A stretch of DNA of 64,000 nt from Rhodococcus sp. G-MC3 (GTDB lineage: Bacteria > Actinomycetota > Actinomycetes > Mycobacteriales > Mycobacteriaceae): positions 62,001-126,000 of the forward strand of contig NZ_JASISW010000006.1 in NCBI RefSeq assembly GCF_030063335.1, written 5' to 3'. The position numbers and the translations under genes were made by a program. Shown here one piece after another: positions 6,263-17,306 of this stretch. The notes under the pieces are model-generated. The model saw only the letters and a list, made by a program, of their open reading frames with translations, did not search any database and was not told the origin of the DNA. Numbering within the stretch: the stretch's first letter is position 1; each line of letters opens with the position of its first letter.

Positions 6263-7879
6263 TTACTGTCCGCTCAGCCAGGTGTCGAAGAACTGCAGAC
6301 GGGCGGACGCTTCGAACTTCAGGTCCTGAACCTTCGGTCCGGCGCCGATCGCCTGCGACAGTTCGATGGTCGGAATCCACAAGCCGTTGTCGAGCACTTG
6401 CTGCTGCGCCGCCGCAATGAACCCGTTCCGTGTCGCGGTATCGGTCGCCGCCAATTCGTCGGTCAACGCCGTGTCGAGATCCGGGATCGGGCCGCGCGCG
6501 TTCAAGTTTCGACCGTCCAAGCCGAACGAAGTGCGCAGGATGTCGCCATCGGCGCGAGTGCTGTTGAAGTAGGTGACATCGAAGTCCTTGCTGTTCTGCC
6601 GTGCCGTCGATTCCGGTAGCGACACCAGTTCGAGTTGAAGATCGACGCCCACGTCACGCAGTTGCTGTTGTGTCAGCTCGAGGATTGCCTGGTTCCCGGC
6701 GAAGACCGCACTGAACATGACCCTGAAACTGAGCTTCTGGCCGTCTTTCTCACGGATGCCGTCGGCTCCGGGGACCCAGCCTGCTGCGTCGAGAATCGAC
6801 TTCGCCTTCTCCGGGTCGTACTTGACGTCCGACAGTTCGGTGTAGCCGGGAGTCTTGCTGGCGAGCGTCGACGTCGCAGTCTTGAAGTCGGGTCCGAGGA
6901 TAGTGTCGACGAGTTCTTGGCGATTGATCGCCGGGACGAGCGCCTTACGAACCTCCACGTCCCGTAAGACACCACGAGTGACGTTGGGTTGGAAGCCGAA
7001 TGGAACTCCAGGGTTGGACGTCGTCACGATCTGGCCGCCGGTGGCCTCGATCTGCGGTGCGTCCTGCGGCAGTGCATCGCTGATGGCGTCGAGCTGATTG
7101 GATGACAGGCTGCCGGTACGTACACCGGACTCTGGAACGACGGTGAACTCGATCTTGTCCAGGTAGGCCTCGCCAGTGTGACCGAAAGCATCGGAGCCCC
7201 AGTTGTATCCGGTGCGCTTGGCAAGCGTCACCGACTTGTCCTGCTGATAGTCGGCGTAGGCGAACGGGCCGCTACCGATATTGTTGCCGAGGCAGCGTTC
7301 CTCGGCGGGCTTCGCTACGGTGCCCGGCGACTGAATTCCGAGCTGAGCAGTCGAAGTTGCTTGCAGGAACTGTGCATTCGGGCCGCTGAAGTCGACCTTG
7401 GCCGTCAATGGATCGACGACGGTCGTGCCTGTGTAGCCCGACAGGTAGCTGGCACCGAGGGGCGCCTTGGCGGAGGAAAGATCGTTCGCAATGGAGTCGA
7501 AGTTGGCCTTGACGGCAGCGGCGTCGACCGTGGTGCCGTCACTGAACGTCACCCCGTCCTTCAGCGAAAAGGTGAACGACTTCGCGTCGGGGGATACTTC
7601 CCAGCGGTTCGCAAGCCACGGGGTGAGCTCGCCGGTGTCGGGATCCTGATCGGTGAGCGAGTCGACGATCTGGCGAGCGACGTAGATGGTCTGATTGGAG
7701 CTGGCCTGCGCTGGGTCGGAGCATGTCGGCGCACCGGAGAGCCCGTAACGCAAGGTACCTCCGGACTGCGGCTCTCCGGCATCGGCCGCGGACGAGGCGG
7801 GACCACCGCCACAGGCAGTCAATACGACGCTCAGGGCAGCGATAGCGCTGGCTCCGGCAAGAAGGGAACGTGAAGACAC
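6263..7879 (-). CDS. ABC transporter substrate-binding lipoprotein, SBP_bac_5 family
   Basis: 538 residues from a GTG start preceded by GGAG with an 8-base gap. A signal peptide ends in lipobox LTAC with Cys at about 23, so it is probably a lipid-anchored cell-surface receptor. The body has the peptide/nickel-binding protein pattern (SGGTLRYGLS near the N terminus, LTPWLANRWEVSPDAKSFTFSLKDGVTFSDGT). It delivers ligand to the two permeases encoded just downstream. Expression is expected to depend on the upstream SAM riboswitch and the Cys leader peptide, from which it is separated by about 105 bases. The ligand is unknown; an organosulfur compound is inferred from context. Confidence 0.9.
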   Translation of the reverse strand: MSSRSLLAGASAIAALSVVLTACGGGPASSAADAGEPQSGGTLRYGLSGAPTCSDPAQASSNQTIYVARQIVDSLTDQDPDTGELTPWLANRWEVSPDAKSFTFSLKDGVTFSDGTTVDAAAVKANFDSIANDLSSAKAPLGASYLSGYTGTTVVDPLTAKVDFSGPNAQFLQATSTAQLGIQSPGTVAKPAEERCLGNNIGSGPFAYADYQQDKSVTLAKRTGYNWGSDAFGHTGEAYLDKIEFTVVPESGVRTGSLSSNQLDAISDALPQDAPQIEATGGQIVTTSNPGVPFGFQPNVTRGVLRDVEVRKALVPAINRQELVDTILGPDFKTATSTLASKTPGYTELSDVKYDPEKAKSILDAAGWVPGADGIREKDGQKLSFRVMFSAVFAGNQAILELTQQQLRDVGVDLQLELVSLPESTARQNSKDFDVTYFNSTRADGDILRTSFGLDGRNLNARGPIPDLDTALTDELAATDTATRNGFIAAAQQQVLDNGLWIPTIELSQAIGAGPKVQDLKFEASARLQFFDTWLSGQ

Positions 7880-8090: not shown

Positions 8091-8096
8091 CGTTCC

Positions 8097-8196
8097 TCCA
8101 TCGGTCCCGGCGGTAGCACCCGCTCCCGCGATGACATGCCCCGCGGGGGGTTGCTGCGACGTCGTAGAGCCAGGTCTCTCGGTCGCTCTGGATGGT
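8097..8196 (-). promoter_or_regulatory. SAM-I (S-box) riboswitch, unit C
   Basis: The transcript strand carries the S-box core in order: ATCCAGAG at the 5' side, then GAGAGACCTGGCTC, GACGTCGCAGCAACC, a GC-rich variable P3/P4 arm, GGTGCTACCGCC, and closing strand GATGG pairing with 5' CCATC (P1). The Shine-Dalgarno GGAGG of the leader ORF shares two bases with the 3' strand of P1, so SAM-stabilised P1 would hide it. No Rho-independent terminator with a U-run follows, favouring translational control. Near-identical aptamers occur at 13464 and 16878. Confidence 0.85.
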
Positions 8197-8209
8197 GTTG
8201 CTGTTTGAA

Positions 8210-13455: not shown

Positions 13456-13463
13456 GTGCGTCC

Positions 13464-13554
13464 TCCATCGGTCCTGGCGGGAGCACCCGCACGCACGAAG
13501 CGTGATGGTTGCTGCGACGTCGTCGAGCCAGGTCTCTACGTCGCTCTGGATGGT
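13464..13554 (-). promoter_or_regulatory. SAM-I (S-box) riboswitch, unit B
   Basis: Transcript strand: CCATCCAGAG, GAGACCTGGCTCGACGACG, TCGCAGCAACC, a short variable arm, GGTGCTCCCGCC and closing GATGG. The last three bases of the P1 closing strand run into GGAGG, which serves the GNAT gene eight bases later. Unlike the two other copies, no leader peptide lies between aptamer and first structural gene. Direct occlusion of the ribosome binding site by SAM-bound P1 is the simplest mode. Confidence 0.85.
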
Positions 13555-13898
13555 TTCAGTTCAATTGTCGTCGAGCTTCAGATGTACGAACCGGGCCAGA
13601 TGCTATTCCATTCCCGATCGCTAGGAAATTCGCTACGGCTACCGAGAGCCGAGCTGAAACCGCGACGTCGACGGTCGACGCCCGCCCACCAGATCGGCAA
13701 CCAGTTCACTTCTCCCGCACCGGACTCCCGTACTCGACCTGCGCCCTGAGGGCCTGCCTGCATCGGGGTGGTAGAGCACTGTGGTGTCGAATTTCAGTCC
13801 AGACCACCGGTTCAGCGCGTGGTCGACGGCCGCCTCCGATGACTACTACGTTCATTATTTCTTCTTACCTGACTGATCGCCGGTCTGTTGCTCTCGGG
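13555..13898 (-). other. Intergenic region between units A and B
   Basis: About 340 bases with no convincing gene; the short frames found here have no family resemblance and lack ribosome sites. It must hold the end of unit A and the promoter of unit B. A possible -10 (TACATC) lies upstream of the unit B aptamer on the minus strand but no matching -35 is clear. No strong terminator hairpin was recognised after the binding-protein gene. Confidence 0.4.
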
Positions 13899-14873
13899 TT
13901 AAGGAGCCTTTCGCGGCAGTCCGGGAGGGTTGACGATCGATTCGGAGACTGCCTCGGACTGCAGGCCCCACTTCTCGAGGACCTTCTCGTAGCTGCCGTC
14001 CTCGATCACGTGGTTGAGCGCTTCCTGGATGGGCCCGACGAGTCCGTTGTCCTTCTTCGTCAGGACGGCAATCTCGCCCTGCAGCGCGTCTCCTGCGCCG
14101 GAGAAGGTTCCGATCACTTCGGTCTCACCGGTGCTGGAGGAGTGGTACACGGCCGACGGATTGGGGCCGAAGTAGGCGCCGATTCGCCCCGATCCGAGCG
14201 CCAGGTAGTAGTCGGACGTGTTCTGGTAGTAGGCGATCTCGGCAGGAGCAAGGCCGTCTGCTGCGTTCTGCTCGTTCCAGTCGACGAGGAGCTGTTCCTG
14301 GTTGGTGCCGGAGCTGACGCCGATCTTCTTGCCGACGATGTCTTTGCGTCCCTGGACCGTCCAGCCACTGTCCTTCTTTGCCTCGAACGCGACGTTGTCC
14401 AGACGGTAGGTCGCGAAGTCGTACTTGTCCTTGCGCTCCTCGGTGACGGTGACGTTGGCAATGAACACGTCGTTCTCACCGGAGTCGATCTTGACGAAGT
14501 TCTGGGCCCAGTCCGCAGTCTGGCGCTCGTACCGAAGGCCGAGAGTGTCGGCGACCAGCCAGGAGAGATCGATCTCGGAGCCGATGGGAGTCTTGTCGTC
14601 GGTAGCGTAGAAGCCGAGCGGCGGTGTTGCGCCGGTGGATCCGGTACCGATCAACGTTCCGCGGTCGCGGATCGACTGCGGGACCTTTGCAGCGATCTCG
14701 TCGACCTTGTCGACGTGGATGCGACCACCTTGCTCCGGGGACAGATCGTACGTGACTCCATCGGATGCGGTGACGGTGTTCTCGGTCTCGGGCTCACTGC
14801 AGGCGGACGCAGTGAGGGCAACGGCGACGAGCGCCGAGGCGAGCACTGCGAGACCTCTGCTGGATCTGGACAT
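13899..14873 (-). CDS. Polar amino acid ABC transporter substrate-binding lipoprotein
   Basis: 324 residues with signal peptide and lipobox ASAC (Cys about 25). The SBP_bac_3 pattern is clear: PPLGFYATDDKTPIGSEIDL, an ADTLGLRYE segment, IANVTVTEERKDKYDFA and DIVGKKIGVSSGTNQEQ. It should capture an amino acid-like ligand outside the membrane for the permease and ATPase encoded just upstream in the same unit. Riboswitch control and the neighbouring acetyltransferase/monooxygenase unit suggest cystine, methionine or an S-substituted cysteine as ligand (inference). Confidence 0.88.
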   Translation of the reverse strand: MSRSSRGLAVLASALVAVALTASACSEPETENTVTASDGVTYDLSPEQGGRIHVDKVDEIAAKVPQSIRDRGTLIGTGSTGATPPLGFYATDDKTPIGSEIDLSWLVADTLGLRYERQTADWAQNFVKIDSGENDVFIANVTVTEERKDKYDFATYRLDNVAFEAKKDSGWTVQGRKDIVGKKIGVSSGTNQEQLLVDWNEQNAADGLAPAEIAYYQNTSDYYLALGSGRIGAYFGPNPSAVYHSSSTGETEVIGTFSGAGDALQGEIAVLTKKDNGLVGPIQEALNHVIEDGSYEKVLEKWGLQSEAVSESIVNPPGLPRKAP

Positions 14874-14904: not shown

Positions 14905-15687
14905 TCAGAGAACGTGCGCGAGAAACGCCTTGGTGCGTTCCTCGGTGGGATTGTCGAGAAGTTGAGCGGGCGAACCTTGTTCGATGATCAGGCCGTCGTC
15001 CATGAAGACGATGGTGTCGGCGATCTCACGGGCGAATCCGACCTCGTGAGTGACGATCACCAACGTGGCGCCGTCGCGAGCGAGTCCACGAATCACCTCG
15101 AGCACCTCGCCGACGAGCTCCGGATCGAGTGCAGAGGTGGGCTCGTCGAACAGAATCACTTTGGGGCGCAATGCAAGTGCTCTGGCGATAGCCACACGCT
15201 GCTGCTGCCCGCCCGACAGGCGTCGGGGATAGTCGTGAGCTTTGTCTTTCAGACCGACGCGTTCGAGCAGGGCAAGCGCCTCGGGTTCGACGTCGGACTT
15301 CGTGCGTTTCTGCGCCGAGATGGGCGCCTCGATGACGTTCTCGAGCGCCGTCAAGTGTGGGAACAGGTTGAAGTTCTGAAAGACGAACCCGATCCGAGAA
15401 CGCTGGCGGAGAATGTCCCTGTTGCTCAGCTCATGAAGCTTGGTGCCCTTCCGGCGGTAACCGACGAGGTCGCCGTCGACCCGGACAGTCCCCTGGTCGA
15501 CCTTCTCCAGATGATTGAGGGTGCGCAGCAGCGTGGACTTGCCCGATCCGGACGGCCCGATGATGACAGTCACTTCACCCGGCCTCACGACCAGATCGAT
15601 GCCTTTCAGGACTTTGAGAGGGCCGAACGACTTGTGAATCCCGCGAACCTCCACAGCGTACTGGGAGTTTTCGGGTGCAATGGTCAT
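14905..15687 (-). CDS. Polar amino acid ABC transporter ATPase (GlnQ/TcyN type)
   Basis: 260 residues with Walker A GPSGSGKST (about 44-52), Q-loop in FQNFNLFPHLTALENV, signature [17 protein letters not shown], Walker [13 protein letters not shown] and H-loop VTHEVGF: a complete single ATPase domain of the amino acid uptake family. Its ATG overlaps the permease stop by four bases. It acts at the cytoplasmic membrane face, driving the single permease (presumably a homodimer). Confidence 0.92.
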   Translation of the reverse strand: MTIAPENSQYAVEVRGIHKSFGPLKVLKGIDLVVRPGEVTVIIGPSGSGKSTLLRTLNHLEKVDQGTVRVDGDLVGYRRKGTKLHELSNRDILRQRSRIGFVFQNFNLFPHLTALENVIEAPISAQKRTKSDVEPEALALLERVGLKDKAHDYPRRLSGGQQQRVAIARALALRPKVILFDEPTSALDPELVGEVLEVIRGLARDGATLVIVTHEVGFAREIADTIVFMDDGLIIEQGSPAQLLDNPTEERTKAFLAHVL

Positions 15688-16646
15688 CGTGTCGCTCCCC
15701 GCGGCGCGAGAGTGATCTCGGCCAGCTTCTCACGCAGTTTCTGAATGGGCGTCGACGGGATGTTACGTACCGCACCCTTGGCGTAGTGCCGCTCGACGTA
15801 GAACTGTACGACCGAGAGTATCGAGGTCAACACGATGTACCAGACAGTGGCTACCAGCAGCAACGGCACCACTCGGCCGTTACGGCCGTAGACCACCTGG
15901 ACCTGGTAGAACAGCTCGGCGATGGCCATCACCGACACGATCGAGGTGCCCTTGAAGAGGCTGATCACCTCGTTTGCGGCGTTGGGAAGAATCCCTCGCA
16001 TGGCCTGGGGTAGGACGATCTTGAAGAACTCGCGGTGCTTCGGAATACCCAGGGCAGCAGCGGCTTCGAGCTGGCCTTGATCAACCGAGTTGATCCCCGC
16101 ACGTACGATCTCGGCGGAATACGCGGCCTGGTGTAGCGCCAAACCGATGATCGCGGCGGTGGTGCCGCTGATTACGTTGTTCACGTTGAATTCGAAGAAC
16201 GACGGACCGAATGGTACTCCGAAAGAGAGCGTTTGGTACAGGTACGCGATGTTGAACCAGAAGAGCAACTGCACGATCAACGGAATCGACCGGAACGCCC
16301 AGATGTAGAACCACGCAATGATCTGCAGAACAGGATTGTTCGACAGTCGGGCGATGGCGAGAGCAATTCCGATCGCGAAGCCGATCAGCGTTCCCCAGAA
16401 GGTCAGCTGGATGGTCAACCACAGAGCCGCGAGAATGGATGGTGCGGTGAAGTAGTCGGCGAACGTGCCCCAACCCCAACCAGGGTTGGAGACGAATCCG
16501 TGGAGGAATTGAGCCACCAGCACCAGAGTGACGATGCTGACGACCCACCGCCACGGATGCCACTGCCTGGCGACGACGAGTTTTTCATCGTCGACCGGCA
16601 CTTCAGCGGCCGGCGGACGCACTTCGAGTTGGGTCACCGGGGCCAC
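15684..16646 (-). CDS. Polar amino acid ABC transporter permease (HisM type)
   Basis: 320 residues; membrane helices at about 35-55, 75-100, 110-135 and three further on, with the family loop LEAAAALGIPKHREFFKIVLPQAMR (interaction with ATPase) near 205-230. The N-terminal cytoplasmic extension of some 30 residues is longer than usual. The start is uncertain: GTG at 16646 lacks a clear ribosome site, and a GTG three codons later could be used instead through coupling with a nine-codon mini-ORF (ATG at about 16664 after AGAAGG) whose TGA overlaps it. First structural gene after the unit A leader peptide. Confidence 0.88.
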   Translation of the reverse strand: MAPVTQLEVRPPAAEVPVDDEKLVVARQWHPWRWVVSIVTLVLVAQFLHGFVSNPGWGWGTFADYFTAPSILAALWLTIQLTFWGTLIGFAIGIALAIARLSNNPVLQIIAWFYIWAFRSIPLIVQLLFWFNIAYLYQTLSFGVPFGPSFFEFNVNNVISGTTAAIIGLALHQAAYSAEIVRAGINSVDQGQLEAAAALGIPKHREFFKIVLPQAMRGILPNAANEVISLFKGTSIVSVMAIAELFYQVQVVYGRNGRVVPLLLVATVWYIVLTSILSVVQFYVERHYAKGAVRNIPSTPIQKLREKLAEITLAPRGATR

Positions 16647-16781
16647 CGGGTGTGTGCATGCATGATCGAGCCTTCTGTCGAGGATGTGTCGTGTGACGAG
16701 CGCTGCGTACCGATATCTGGGACGCGCATGTGAGTCTCATAGCCTGCCCTGCAACGTCATTGCTGGAGTGCGGGCGGGGCT

Positions 16782-16868
16782 CTATTCGCGGGTGGTGCGC
16801 TGCCTACAGACGCAGGTGCTCACTCGGCACAGGTCGACATGAAGACGTCGCCATGTAGCACTACTCAT
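16782..16868 (-). CDS. Cys-containing leader peptide (HVDLCR family), 28 aa
   Basis: 28 codons starting at an ATG six bases after the GGAGG of the unit A riboswitch. It reads ...WRRLHVDLCRVSTCVCRQ..., with three Cys codons within eight, aligned to the conserved end of the peptide at 7986-8090. About 135 bases separate it from the permease gene. The double arrangement, aptamer immediately followed by a Cys leader ORF, strongly suggests a regulatory peptide and not a functional protein. Cysteine sensing is inferred. Confidence 0.75.
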   Translation of the reverse strand: MSSATWRRLHVDLCRVSTCVCRQRTTRE

Positions 16869-16877
16869 ACTGTTCCT

Positions 16878-16970
16878 CCATCGGTCCTGGCGGTAGCACC
16901 CGTACCTTCCGCGAGGAAGGGGGTTGCTGCGACGTCGTCGAGCCAAGGTCTCTCGGTCGCTCTGGATGGT
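16878..16970 (-). promoter_or_regulatory. SAM-I (S-box) riboswitch, unit A
   Basis: Same aptamer order as the other two: CCATCCAGAG, GAGAGACC, TTGGCTCGACGACG, TCGCAGCAACC, a stem with CTTCC/GGAAG arms, GGTGCTACCGCC, AGGACCGATGG. P1 pairs CCATC with GATGG and its last GG begins the GGAGG of the leader ORF. The J1/2-P2 region has one extra base compared with the two other copies. Confidence 0.85.
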
Positions 16971-16976
16971 GATGAG

Positions 16977-17006
16977 AATGTATGCGGTAGATAGTCGAAT
17001 CGTCAA
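16977..17006 (-). promoter_or_regulatory. Promoter of unit A
   Basis: On the minus strand TTGACG, an 18-base gap and TACATT lie just upstream of the riboswitch; the start of transcription would fall only a few bases before P1, as expected for a 5' leader aptamer. Confidence 0.5.
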
Positions 17007-17090
17007 GTCGGCGCAATCGATTTACGTTGCGAGGCTGTAACTTCGGCTTCGAATCACCTCGATTTCAACTCTTGCATTGGTGGTCCATTC

Positions 17091-17306
17091 ATGGCTGACC
17101 GCCGCCTGTTCACTCCTGTGTTCGACAACATGTCGACTTCATTGTTGGACTCGGGGAAGCCGGGGGCCCCACCGGACTGGTACTGCTCGATCCCGACGCA
17201 TCCGCTGCCGTTCTGCTCGCAGGGCGTACCGACATTCGACGACGAGGCGTTCTCCACGAGAGACCTGGTTTCTTCGCGTACAGAAAAGCCGGATTCCAAT
17301 TCCTGA
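17091..17306 (+). CDS. Small hypothetical protein, 71 aa
   Basis: An ORF starting MADRRLFTPVFDNM with strongly G/C-biased third codon positions (roughly three quarters), which is better than the overlapping frames and hints at real coding. It has three Cys residues (YCS, FCS region) and a charged C terminus, but no family I recognise. It precedes the whiB-like gene on the same strand by some 60 bases. It could also be the unfunctional remnant of a longer gene. Confidence 0.35.
   Translation: MADRRLFTPVFDNMSTSLLDSGKPGAPPDWYCSIPTHPLPFCSQGVPTFDDEAFSTRDLVSSRTEKPDSNS

Follow-up and report, generated by a model that had tools for sequence, protein, structure and literature searches.

The closing P1 strand of a SAM-I (S-box) aptamer in Rhodococcus sp. 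G-MC3 doubles as the ribosome site of a cysteine-containing leader peptide ahead of an amino-acid transporter operon, an arrangement that is supported by sequence comparison and conserved well beyond the source genome. We consider it probable (approximately 0.6) that the two elements act as a serial two-input sulfur switch, SAM-I first and Cys leader next, with the operon on when SAM and cysteine are both scarce. Of the serial SAM/Cys gate put forward in the original prediction, the anatomy stands: its parts, their order (S-box P1 as the Cys leader ribosome site), their conservation and the selection on the peptide are all well supported. The "logic gate" function, comprising SAM binding, stalling and operon control, is what we infer from that anatomy. 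Two sulfur signals may thereby be read in series on one mRNA of a soil actinobacterium. A riboswitch is usually drawn as one ligand acting on one gene; here the controlled gene would itself be a sensor and, if the reading is true, two unlike RNA-level sensors act in series on one messenger. Related species supply natural controls (aptamer plus leader, aptamer alone, leader alone), and the stacked-sensor logic is directly testable with short reporter constructs.

The window (the whole stretch of DNA analysed, 64,000 nt) holds three SAM-I units, of which unit A, with the three-cysteine leader, comprises:

16977..17006, minus strand: promoter-like site (TTGACG, 18 nt, TACATT), a consensus match only
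16875..16972, minus strand: SAM-I (S-box) aptamer, 52.1 bits with RF00162
16782..16868, minus strand: Cys leader peptide ORF, MSSATWRRLHVDLCRVSTCVCRQRTTRE followed by a stop, 33.6 bits with NCBIfam NF042934 (cut-off 27)
16638..16781, minus strand: spacer from leader stop to permease start (C 0.37, G 0.26)
16634..16663, minus strand: second short ORF, MHAHTRWPR followed by a stop, preceded by AGAAGG; its stop overlaps the permease start (GTGA)
15684..16637, minus strand: permease, polar amino-acid ABC transporter (PF00528), conserved start MTQL
14905..15687, minus strand: ATPase of the ABC transporter, with L-cystine TcyN as its best model, below cut-off
13899..14873, minus strand: family 3 solute-binding protein (PF00497), for which a cystine-binding model came second, below cut-off

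A SAM-I riboswitch had been predicted at this locus, and the RF00162 search bore this out with a match at 16972-16875 on the minus strand, scoring 52.1 bits (gathering threshold, 44.4 bits). Three SAM-I matches were obtained in the 5.6 Mb genome, all on the minus strand of the window, and no others matched. P4 of the unit A aptamer is reduced to approximately two pairs, and the score stays above the cut-off despite this remnant; where the model has 18 positions there are 2 here, and the two pairs of the remnant (CC..GG) were present in 59 and 58 of 59 distinct leader-class aptamers. These aptamers scored 48-58 bits, modestly above 44.4. P1, P2 and P3 pairs were kept in nearly all of the 59, with compensation in the outer P3 pairs (CG, TA and GC exchanges); P1 and P2 were mostly invariant and hence offer little test of covariation. 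Predicted folding of unit A was not unusual relative to shuffles (z of -0.48 for the aptamer and -0.67 for the leader-to-gene region). Judged by model score and the P1-P3 helices, the element appears to be a genuine S-box, with SAM as its putative ligand. One promoter-like site was found in 16600-17110 (0.2 expected from shuffles), from which the unit A transcript would start at approximately the first aptamer base.

The 3' strand of P1 reads GATGGAGG, with an ATG 6 nt beyond it, and GAUGGAGG (3' P1 strand of unit A) is the apparent Shine-Dalgarno sequence of a 28-codon ORF with Cys at positions 14, 19 and 21, which confirms the earlier description of a closing P1 strand merging with the GGAGG of a three-Cys ORF. 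Across 71 leader-class loci the inner five P1 pairs were formed without exception and GATGGAGG was kept in 60. Within GGAGG, the inner GG was always paired, the two outer positions were paired in 47/71 and 31/71 loci, and the intervening A in 0/71. Given five constant pairs, plus one or two across GGAGG in some loci, SAM should therefore lower access to the leader ribosome site. P1 position 3 was unpaired in 71/71 leader loci and paired in 13/67 others, which is perhaps a tuning of the ribosome site. The peptide itself passes NF042934, an NCBIfam "putative leader peptide" model of type cis_reg_atten with a cut-off of 27 bits; of six peptides given to it, four passed, the two below (21.1 and 23.9 bits) coming from genus g27. 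Scores with NF042933 (leader_Ms5788A) were 24.9 and 13.9 bits for units A and B, below its cut-off of 45.

The other two units, with the genes directly under them, are:

8095..8198, minus strand: SAM-I aptamer of unit B, 50.9 bits with RF00162
7986..8090, minus strand: Cys leader ORF of unit B, MRTAGNPVLGAGFVTAWGRLHVDLCRLTGSICLG followed by a stop, 39.6 bits with NF042934 (cut-off 27)
6263..7879, minus strand: family 5 solute-binding protein of the peptide/nickel type, under unit B
13462..13556, minus strand: SAM-I aptamer of unit C, without leader peptide, 46.7 bits with RF00162
12943..13455, minus strand: GNAT acetyltransferase (PF00583), under unit C

Unit B repeats the unit A design upstream of an oligopeptide/nickel-type transporter with a family 5 binding protein; its start codon lies 4 nt past the same P1 strand, and RLHVDLCR is common to both leaders. 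In unit C the P1 strand serves the GNAT coding sequence directly. Unit C sits between the two leader-bearing units, so that SAM-only and SAM-plus-Cys designs lie side by side. For the unit A permease (scanned from 16646) the top NCBIfam model was a cystine permease, below cut-off. Luciferase-like monooxygenases occur between and beyond the units, one of them nearest to alkanesulfonate monooxygenase, also below cut-off. Overall, the region looks like a cluster for sulfur-compound uptake and salvage, and may resemble the ytmI operon of Bacillus subtilis.

Exact HVDLCR was sought with the pattern CAY-VTN-GAY-YTN-TGY-CG, using the reversed pattern as a control. Two matches were found in the 5.6 Mb genome, both directly after a SAM-I aptamer, against one for the control; a longer leader pattern gave 2 against 0 in the same genome. 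Across the 37 genomes of the genus the pattern matched 53 times, in 31 genomes, against 11 for the reversed control; 26 of the matches, by hand count, stood just behind SAM-I, and the pattern also occurs in the genus away from SAM-I. Some 7 of the 19 aptamer-free loci inspected by eye read as leader ORFs and the others as chance matches. Four aptamer-free leaders (L056, L060, L070 and L084) start right behind a TAGCATG-like -10 element, less clearly so in L070, and precede a protein of 144-175 aa, which in L084 weakly resembles the C-terminal part of an NtaA-family monooxygenase.

At least two Cys codons were present in 71/81 short ORFs behind aptamers (9-60 codons, start 2-13 nt past P1), compared to 23% of 7,425 short ORFs drawn at random from these loci, and HxDLxR in 46/65 distinct leader peptides compared to 0.2% of the random ORFs. 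R-x-H-V/I-D-L-C-R is conserved at the peptide level, and 47/58 distinct leaders have their last Cys no more than four codons before the stop. The Cys codon of HVDLCR is TGC in 52/57 cases; those among the last eight leader codons are TGT in 72/93, and TGT accounts for 28 of the 89 Cys codons in the window's predicted genes. Differences at codon positions 1/2/3 numbered 98/64/274 over 53 leader pairs matched for genus and length and sharing at least 70% identity, and 24/21/58 over 17 disjoint pairs; this dominance of third-position change argues that the peptide is translated and under selection.

SAM-I was detected in 22/37 genus genomes (51 matches, including 6 that score under the family cut-off), in 114/401 family genomes and, in a phylum search, in 199/396 genomes; leader counts cover the genus, the family and the named loci. 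Classification of 138 places (51 genus plus 87 family matches, further family matches being left out) gave 71 with a Cys leader, 39 with the aptamer directly on a coding sequence and 28 other or unclear, where the leader class was set by a motif expression that also admits CTC and CIC and misses the pair of copies in genome G023 and locus L155. Of the 13 genera represented among these places, 9 had Cys leaders behind SAM-I. All these are counts of loci, many closely related, and not of independent events. Leaders range from 9 to 72 codons, their lengths and N-terminal parts varying freely.

Among the named-genome matches listed (at least 80 stretches) were Williamsia, Kineococcus, Blastococcus, Geodermatophilus and Pseudonocardia. 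An aptamer beside the leader was confirmed by cmscan in 13/16 named loci given, the misses being L211, L174 and L227 (none at cut-off, aptamer-like letters present). Ten non-actinobacterial pattern matches inspected by eye showed no S-box-like letters, and L174 was also negative by cmscan. A rhodanese-like sulfurtransferase (PF00581) follows the SAM-I element and Cys leader of Kineococcus L177, with L207 alike by eye. For the ATPase behind the leader of Blastococcus L188 the best model was MetN, below cut-off; L196, L206 and L227 resemble L188 at the ATPase start.

Close copies of the unit A permease, collected by protein search at an identity of at least 80%, numbered 20 in 19/37 genus genomes. 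SAM-I preceded the permease in 20/20, and a leader with at least one Cys was present in 19/20 and with at least two in 17/20, so that within the genus homologous loci keep both the aptamer and, with one exception, a Cys ORF, as the original prediction expected of them. Exact HVDLCR was found in nine copies and was absent from 11, among them five with a CxC leader of nine codons; CxC lies close to the peptide end in many. Genome G023 has two copies with the one-Cys leader MNTCIRTPA (L024 and L031, on the same contig in opposite orientation), and in genome G035 the aptamer stands directly on the permease, without a leader. At g22 loci L110, L111 and L133 a permease of the same kind, judged by its first residues, likewise comes directly after the aptamer. 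As the aptamer is present in all close copies and the leader is short or absent in some, the aptamer appears to be the constant part, and the peptide module to have been shortened or lost in places.

In the mechanism we propose, the transcript would begin at or near the SAM-I aptamer. At high SAM, a stable P1 would hold part of GGAGG, leaving the Cys leader untranslated and the operon off, as the anatomy suggests; at low SAM, ribosomes would translate the leader. When charged Cys-tRNA is low they would stall at Cys codons, chiefly those few codons before the stop, and thus allow downstream expression; with Cys codons so close to the stop, Cys-tRNA would be the natural second input. The last link would most likely be protection of the C-rich, G-poor spacer from Rho, or a similar event, and in unit A the second short ORF would then bring ribosomes to the permease start. 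Full expression of the operon would require that SAM and cysteine both be scarce. In relatives, a permease of this kind follows the aptamer with no leader between, and SAM is therefore likely to be an off signal at leader-bearing loci as well, provided that the output is conserved; with that sign kept, leader translation must favour expression. A more specific formulation, which we offer tentatively and would not expect to hold in full, is a conserved actinobacterial AND gate in which the output of the SAM riboswitch is a second sensor, the R-x-H-V/I-D-L-C-R nascent peptide aids a Cys-tRNA-sensitive arrest that chooses between Rho termination and expression, and lineages add, shorten or drop the peptide and keep the aptamer.

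The distance of 135 bases originally given from leader to transporter genes holds for a start at GTG 16646; to the conserved permease start (MTQL, GTG 16637) it is 144 nt. An equivalent of the second short ORF, with a GAAAGG- or GAAGG-like site and the GTGA overlap, was present in 18/20 close unit A copies, and equivalents with other sequences occur in other genera; as its peptide differs between genera, this ORF looks like a candidate coupling device. No terminator-like site was found in 16600-17110, and a classical attenuator was rejected for unit A on this count. Two varied alignments of the unit A leader-to-gene region (13 and 9 loci, indel-rich, the row for L123 shortened) revealed no conserved RNA structure; these alignments cover unit A only. 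Five near-identical short-leader copies fold together at -27.9 kcal/mol, their near-identity making this uninformative on conservation.

Base composition of the spacers was distinctive. Of 69 distinct spacers of 60 nt, 96% had more C than G, with a mean C-G of 0.165, compared to 0.010 within leaders, 0.013 over the 60 nt before the aptamers and -0.004 at 400-460 nt downstream. Among 67 leaderless loci, 76% had more C than G at 20-80 nt past P1 (mean 0.071), as did 66% of 29 upstream stretches of the window (mean 0.033), the latter drawn from a single window and including three that belong to the SAM-I/leader system itself. The spacer of the window itself is milder and not uniform: over one stretch of 40 nt, G exceeds C. 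With modest confidence, we regard the C-rich, G-poor spacer as a candidate Rho-like site, and a Rho-type step as the favoured link between leader and gene.

Ribosome stalling in the Ms5788A-type mechanism of mycobacteria exposes the ribosome site of the ORF that follows. The same could happen here, SAM acting as an additional gate; this reading, which we find doubtful, differs from the preferred one in its last step, and the odds of the two overlap. Membership of units A and B in the same leader family, NF042934, speaks for it, and so does modelling of a ribosome centred on the His of HVD, by which the second-ORF AGAAGG of the window copy is predicted to go from fully paired (0.00 open) to 0.80 open, L020 and L021 from 0.19 to 0.58 and 0.62, and the unit A mean from 0.41 to 0.51. 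However, placing the model ribosome at the last Cys gave no average effect, with a mean change at downstream sites, chosen by pattern, of -0.005 over 57 distinct loci (of 58 found), 7 going up and 8 down by >0.05, and conserved structure was not found in unit A. A pairing seen in the window between the RLHVD codons and the second-ORF AGAAGG was rejected as the mechanism; it looked similar in L017 and was not seen in the other copies compared by eye.

If SAM were instead the sole regulator, the leader would be a relay, serving message protection or translational coupling, and its Cys codons would matter little here. The one-Cys leader in two copies of G023 and the leaderless locus of G035 fit such a relay, for which the riboswitch-gated uORF of ppe2 in M. 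tuberculosis, as described in the available parts of PMC11260477, is a precedent. Yet most close copies have at least two Cys codons (17/20), leaders generally place their last Cys close to the stop, and the peptides of units A and B belong by score to a leader family, so that we consider this account unlikely. Much less likely still is that the short peptide is itself the product, e.g. a Cys-x-Cys metal or thiol binder under ordinary S-box control of a small gene: the R-x-H-V/I-D-L-C-R conservation and the CxC close to the end of many unit A copies would suit it, whereas N-terminal parts and lengths are variable, HVDLCR is absent from 11/20 close copies, and the genes behind, where inspected, have sulfur or transport functions. 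A chance ORF behind an ordinary S-box was rejected as scarcely credible; short ORFs are frequent in GC-rich DNA and almost a quarter of random ones carry two or more Cys codons, but co-occurrence with the aptamer in the genome, the HxDLxR excess and the third-position substitution bias all stand against it. The serial two-input switch thus remains our preferred reading.

Canestrari et al. reportedly described, in 2020, cysteine-responsive polycysteine short ORFs of mycobacteria, a system to which NF042934 (cis_reg_atten) and NF042933 (leader_Ms5788A) presumably correspond. The likeness lies in the peptide family (NF042934, units A and B) and in Cys codons near the stop. Translation of those ORFs is leaderless and starts at the 5' end of the mRNA, whereas here the aptamer and GGAGG lie upstream of the leader start, in the sequence and on the predicted transcript, and the SAM-I aptamer supplies the ribosome site and would gate it. 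In the ubiG operon of Clostridium acetobutylicum, an S-box and a Cys T-box place one sulfur operon under the control of SAM and Cys-tRNA; that operon differs in its parts, an antisense S-box and a T-box.

SAM-I elements and Cys leaders were each said at the outset to be known and their stacking to be undescribed, and the literature searched, with partial coverage, agrees: both modules are known, and no description of a SAM riboswitch gating a Cys leader was found there, nor of the SAM-I/Cys-leader stack in the available parts of PMC13236596, PMC9094748, PMC9031893, PMC11109978 and PMC6429828. Cys leader peptides of actinobacterial cys operons were described by Seliverstov et al. 2005 (PMC1262725), where, for leaders without a conserved hairpin, Rho was suggested and the prediction called weak; they share Cys codons in a short ORF, and the parts of that paper available describe no riboswitch upstream. 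The same likeness and difference apply, within the accessible text of PMC8632094, to the uORFC-8-2 motif ahead of cysS in Rhodobacterales, which is accompanied by an intrinsic terminator. A leaderless ORF of Streptomyces lividans ending in CMCRRMCAF before metNIQ is called methionine-dependent in the portion of PMC8079986 at hand; its Cys codons resemble those of the leaders here, and the SAM-I-led Cys leader of Blastococcus likewise precedes a MetN-like ATPase.

In two other known systems a riboswitch is joined to a further element. According to the available parts of PMC11260477, a B12 riboswitch controls the ppe2 uORF, which is needed for the next gene; the likeness is a riboswitch-gated uORF leading to the next gene, in ppe2 via a 4-nt stop/start overlap, and the difference is a B12 aptamer with one input, amino-acid sensing by the uORF not being described in those parts. 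The Xanthomonas SAM-I riboswitch, as far as the portion of PMC7270179 consulted goes, also senses uncharged initiator tRNA, and the term "leader peptide" is absent from that text. What it shares with the present system is a SAM-I element acting on translation together with a further signal from tRNA charging; it differs in that this further signal binds the RNA directly and is initiator tRNA rather than Cys-tRNA.
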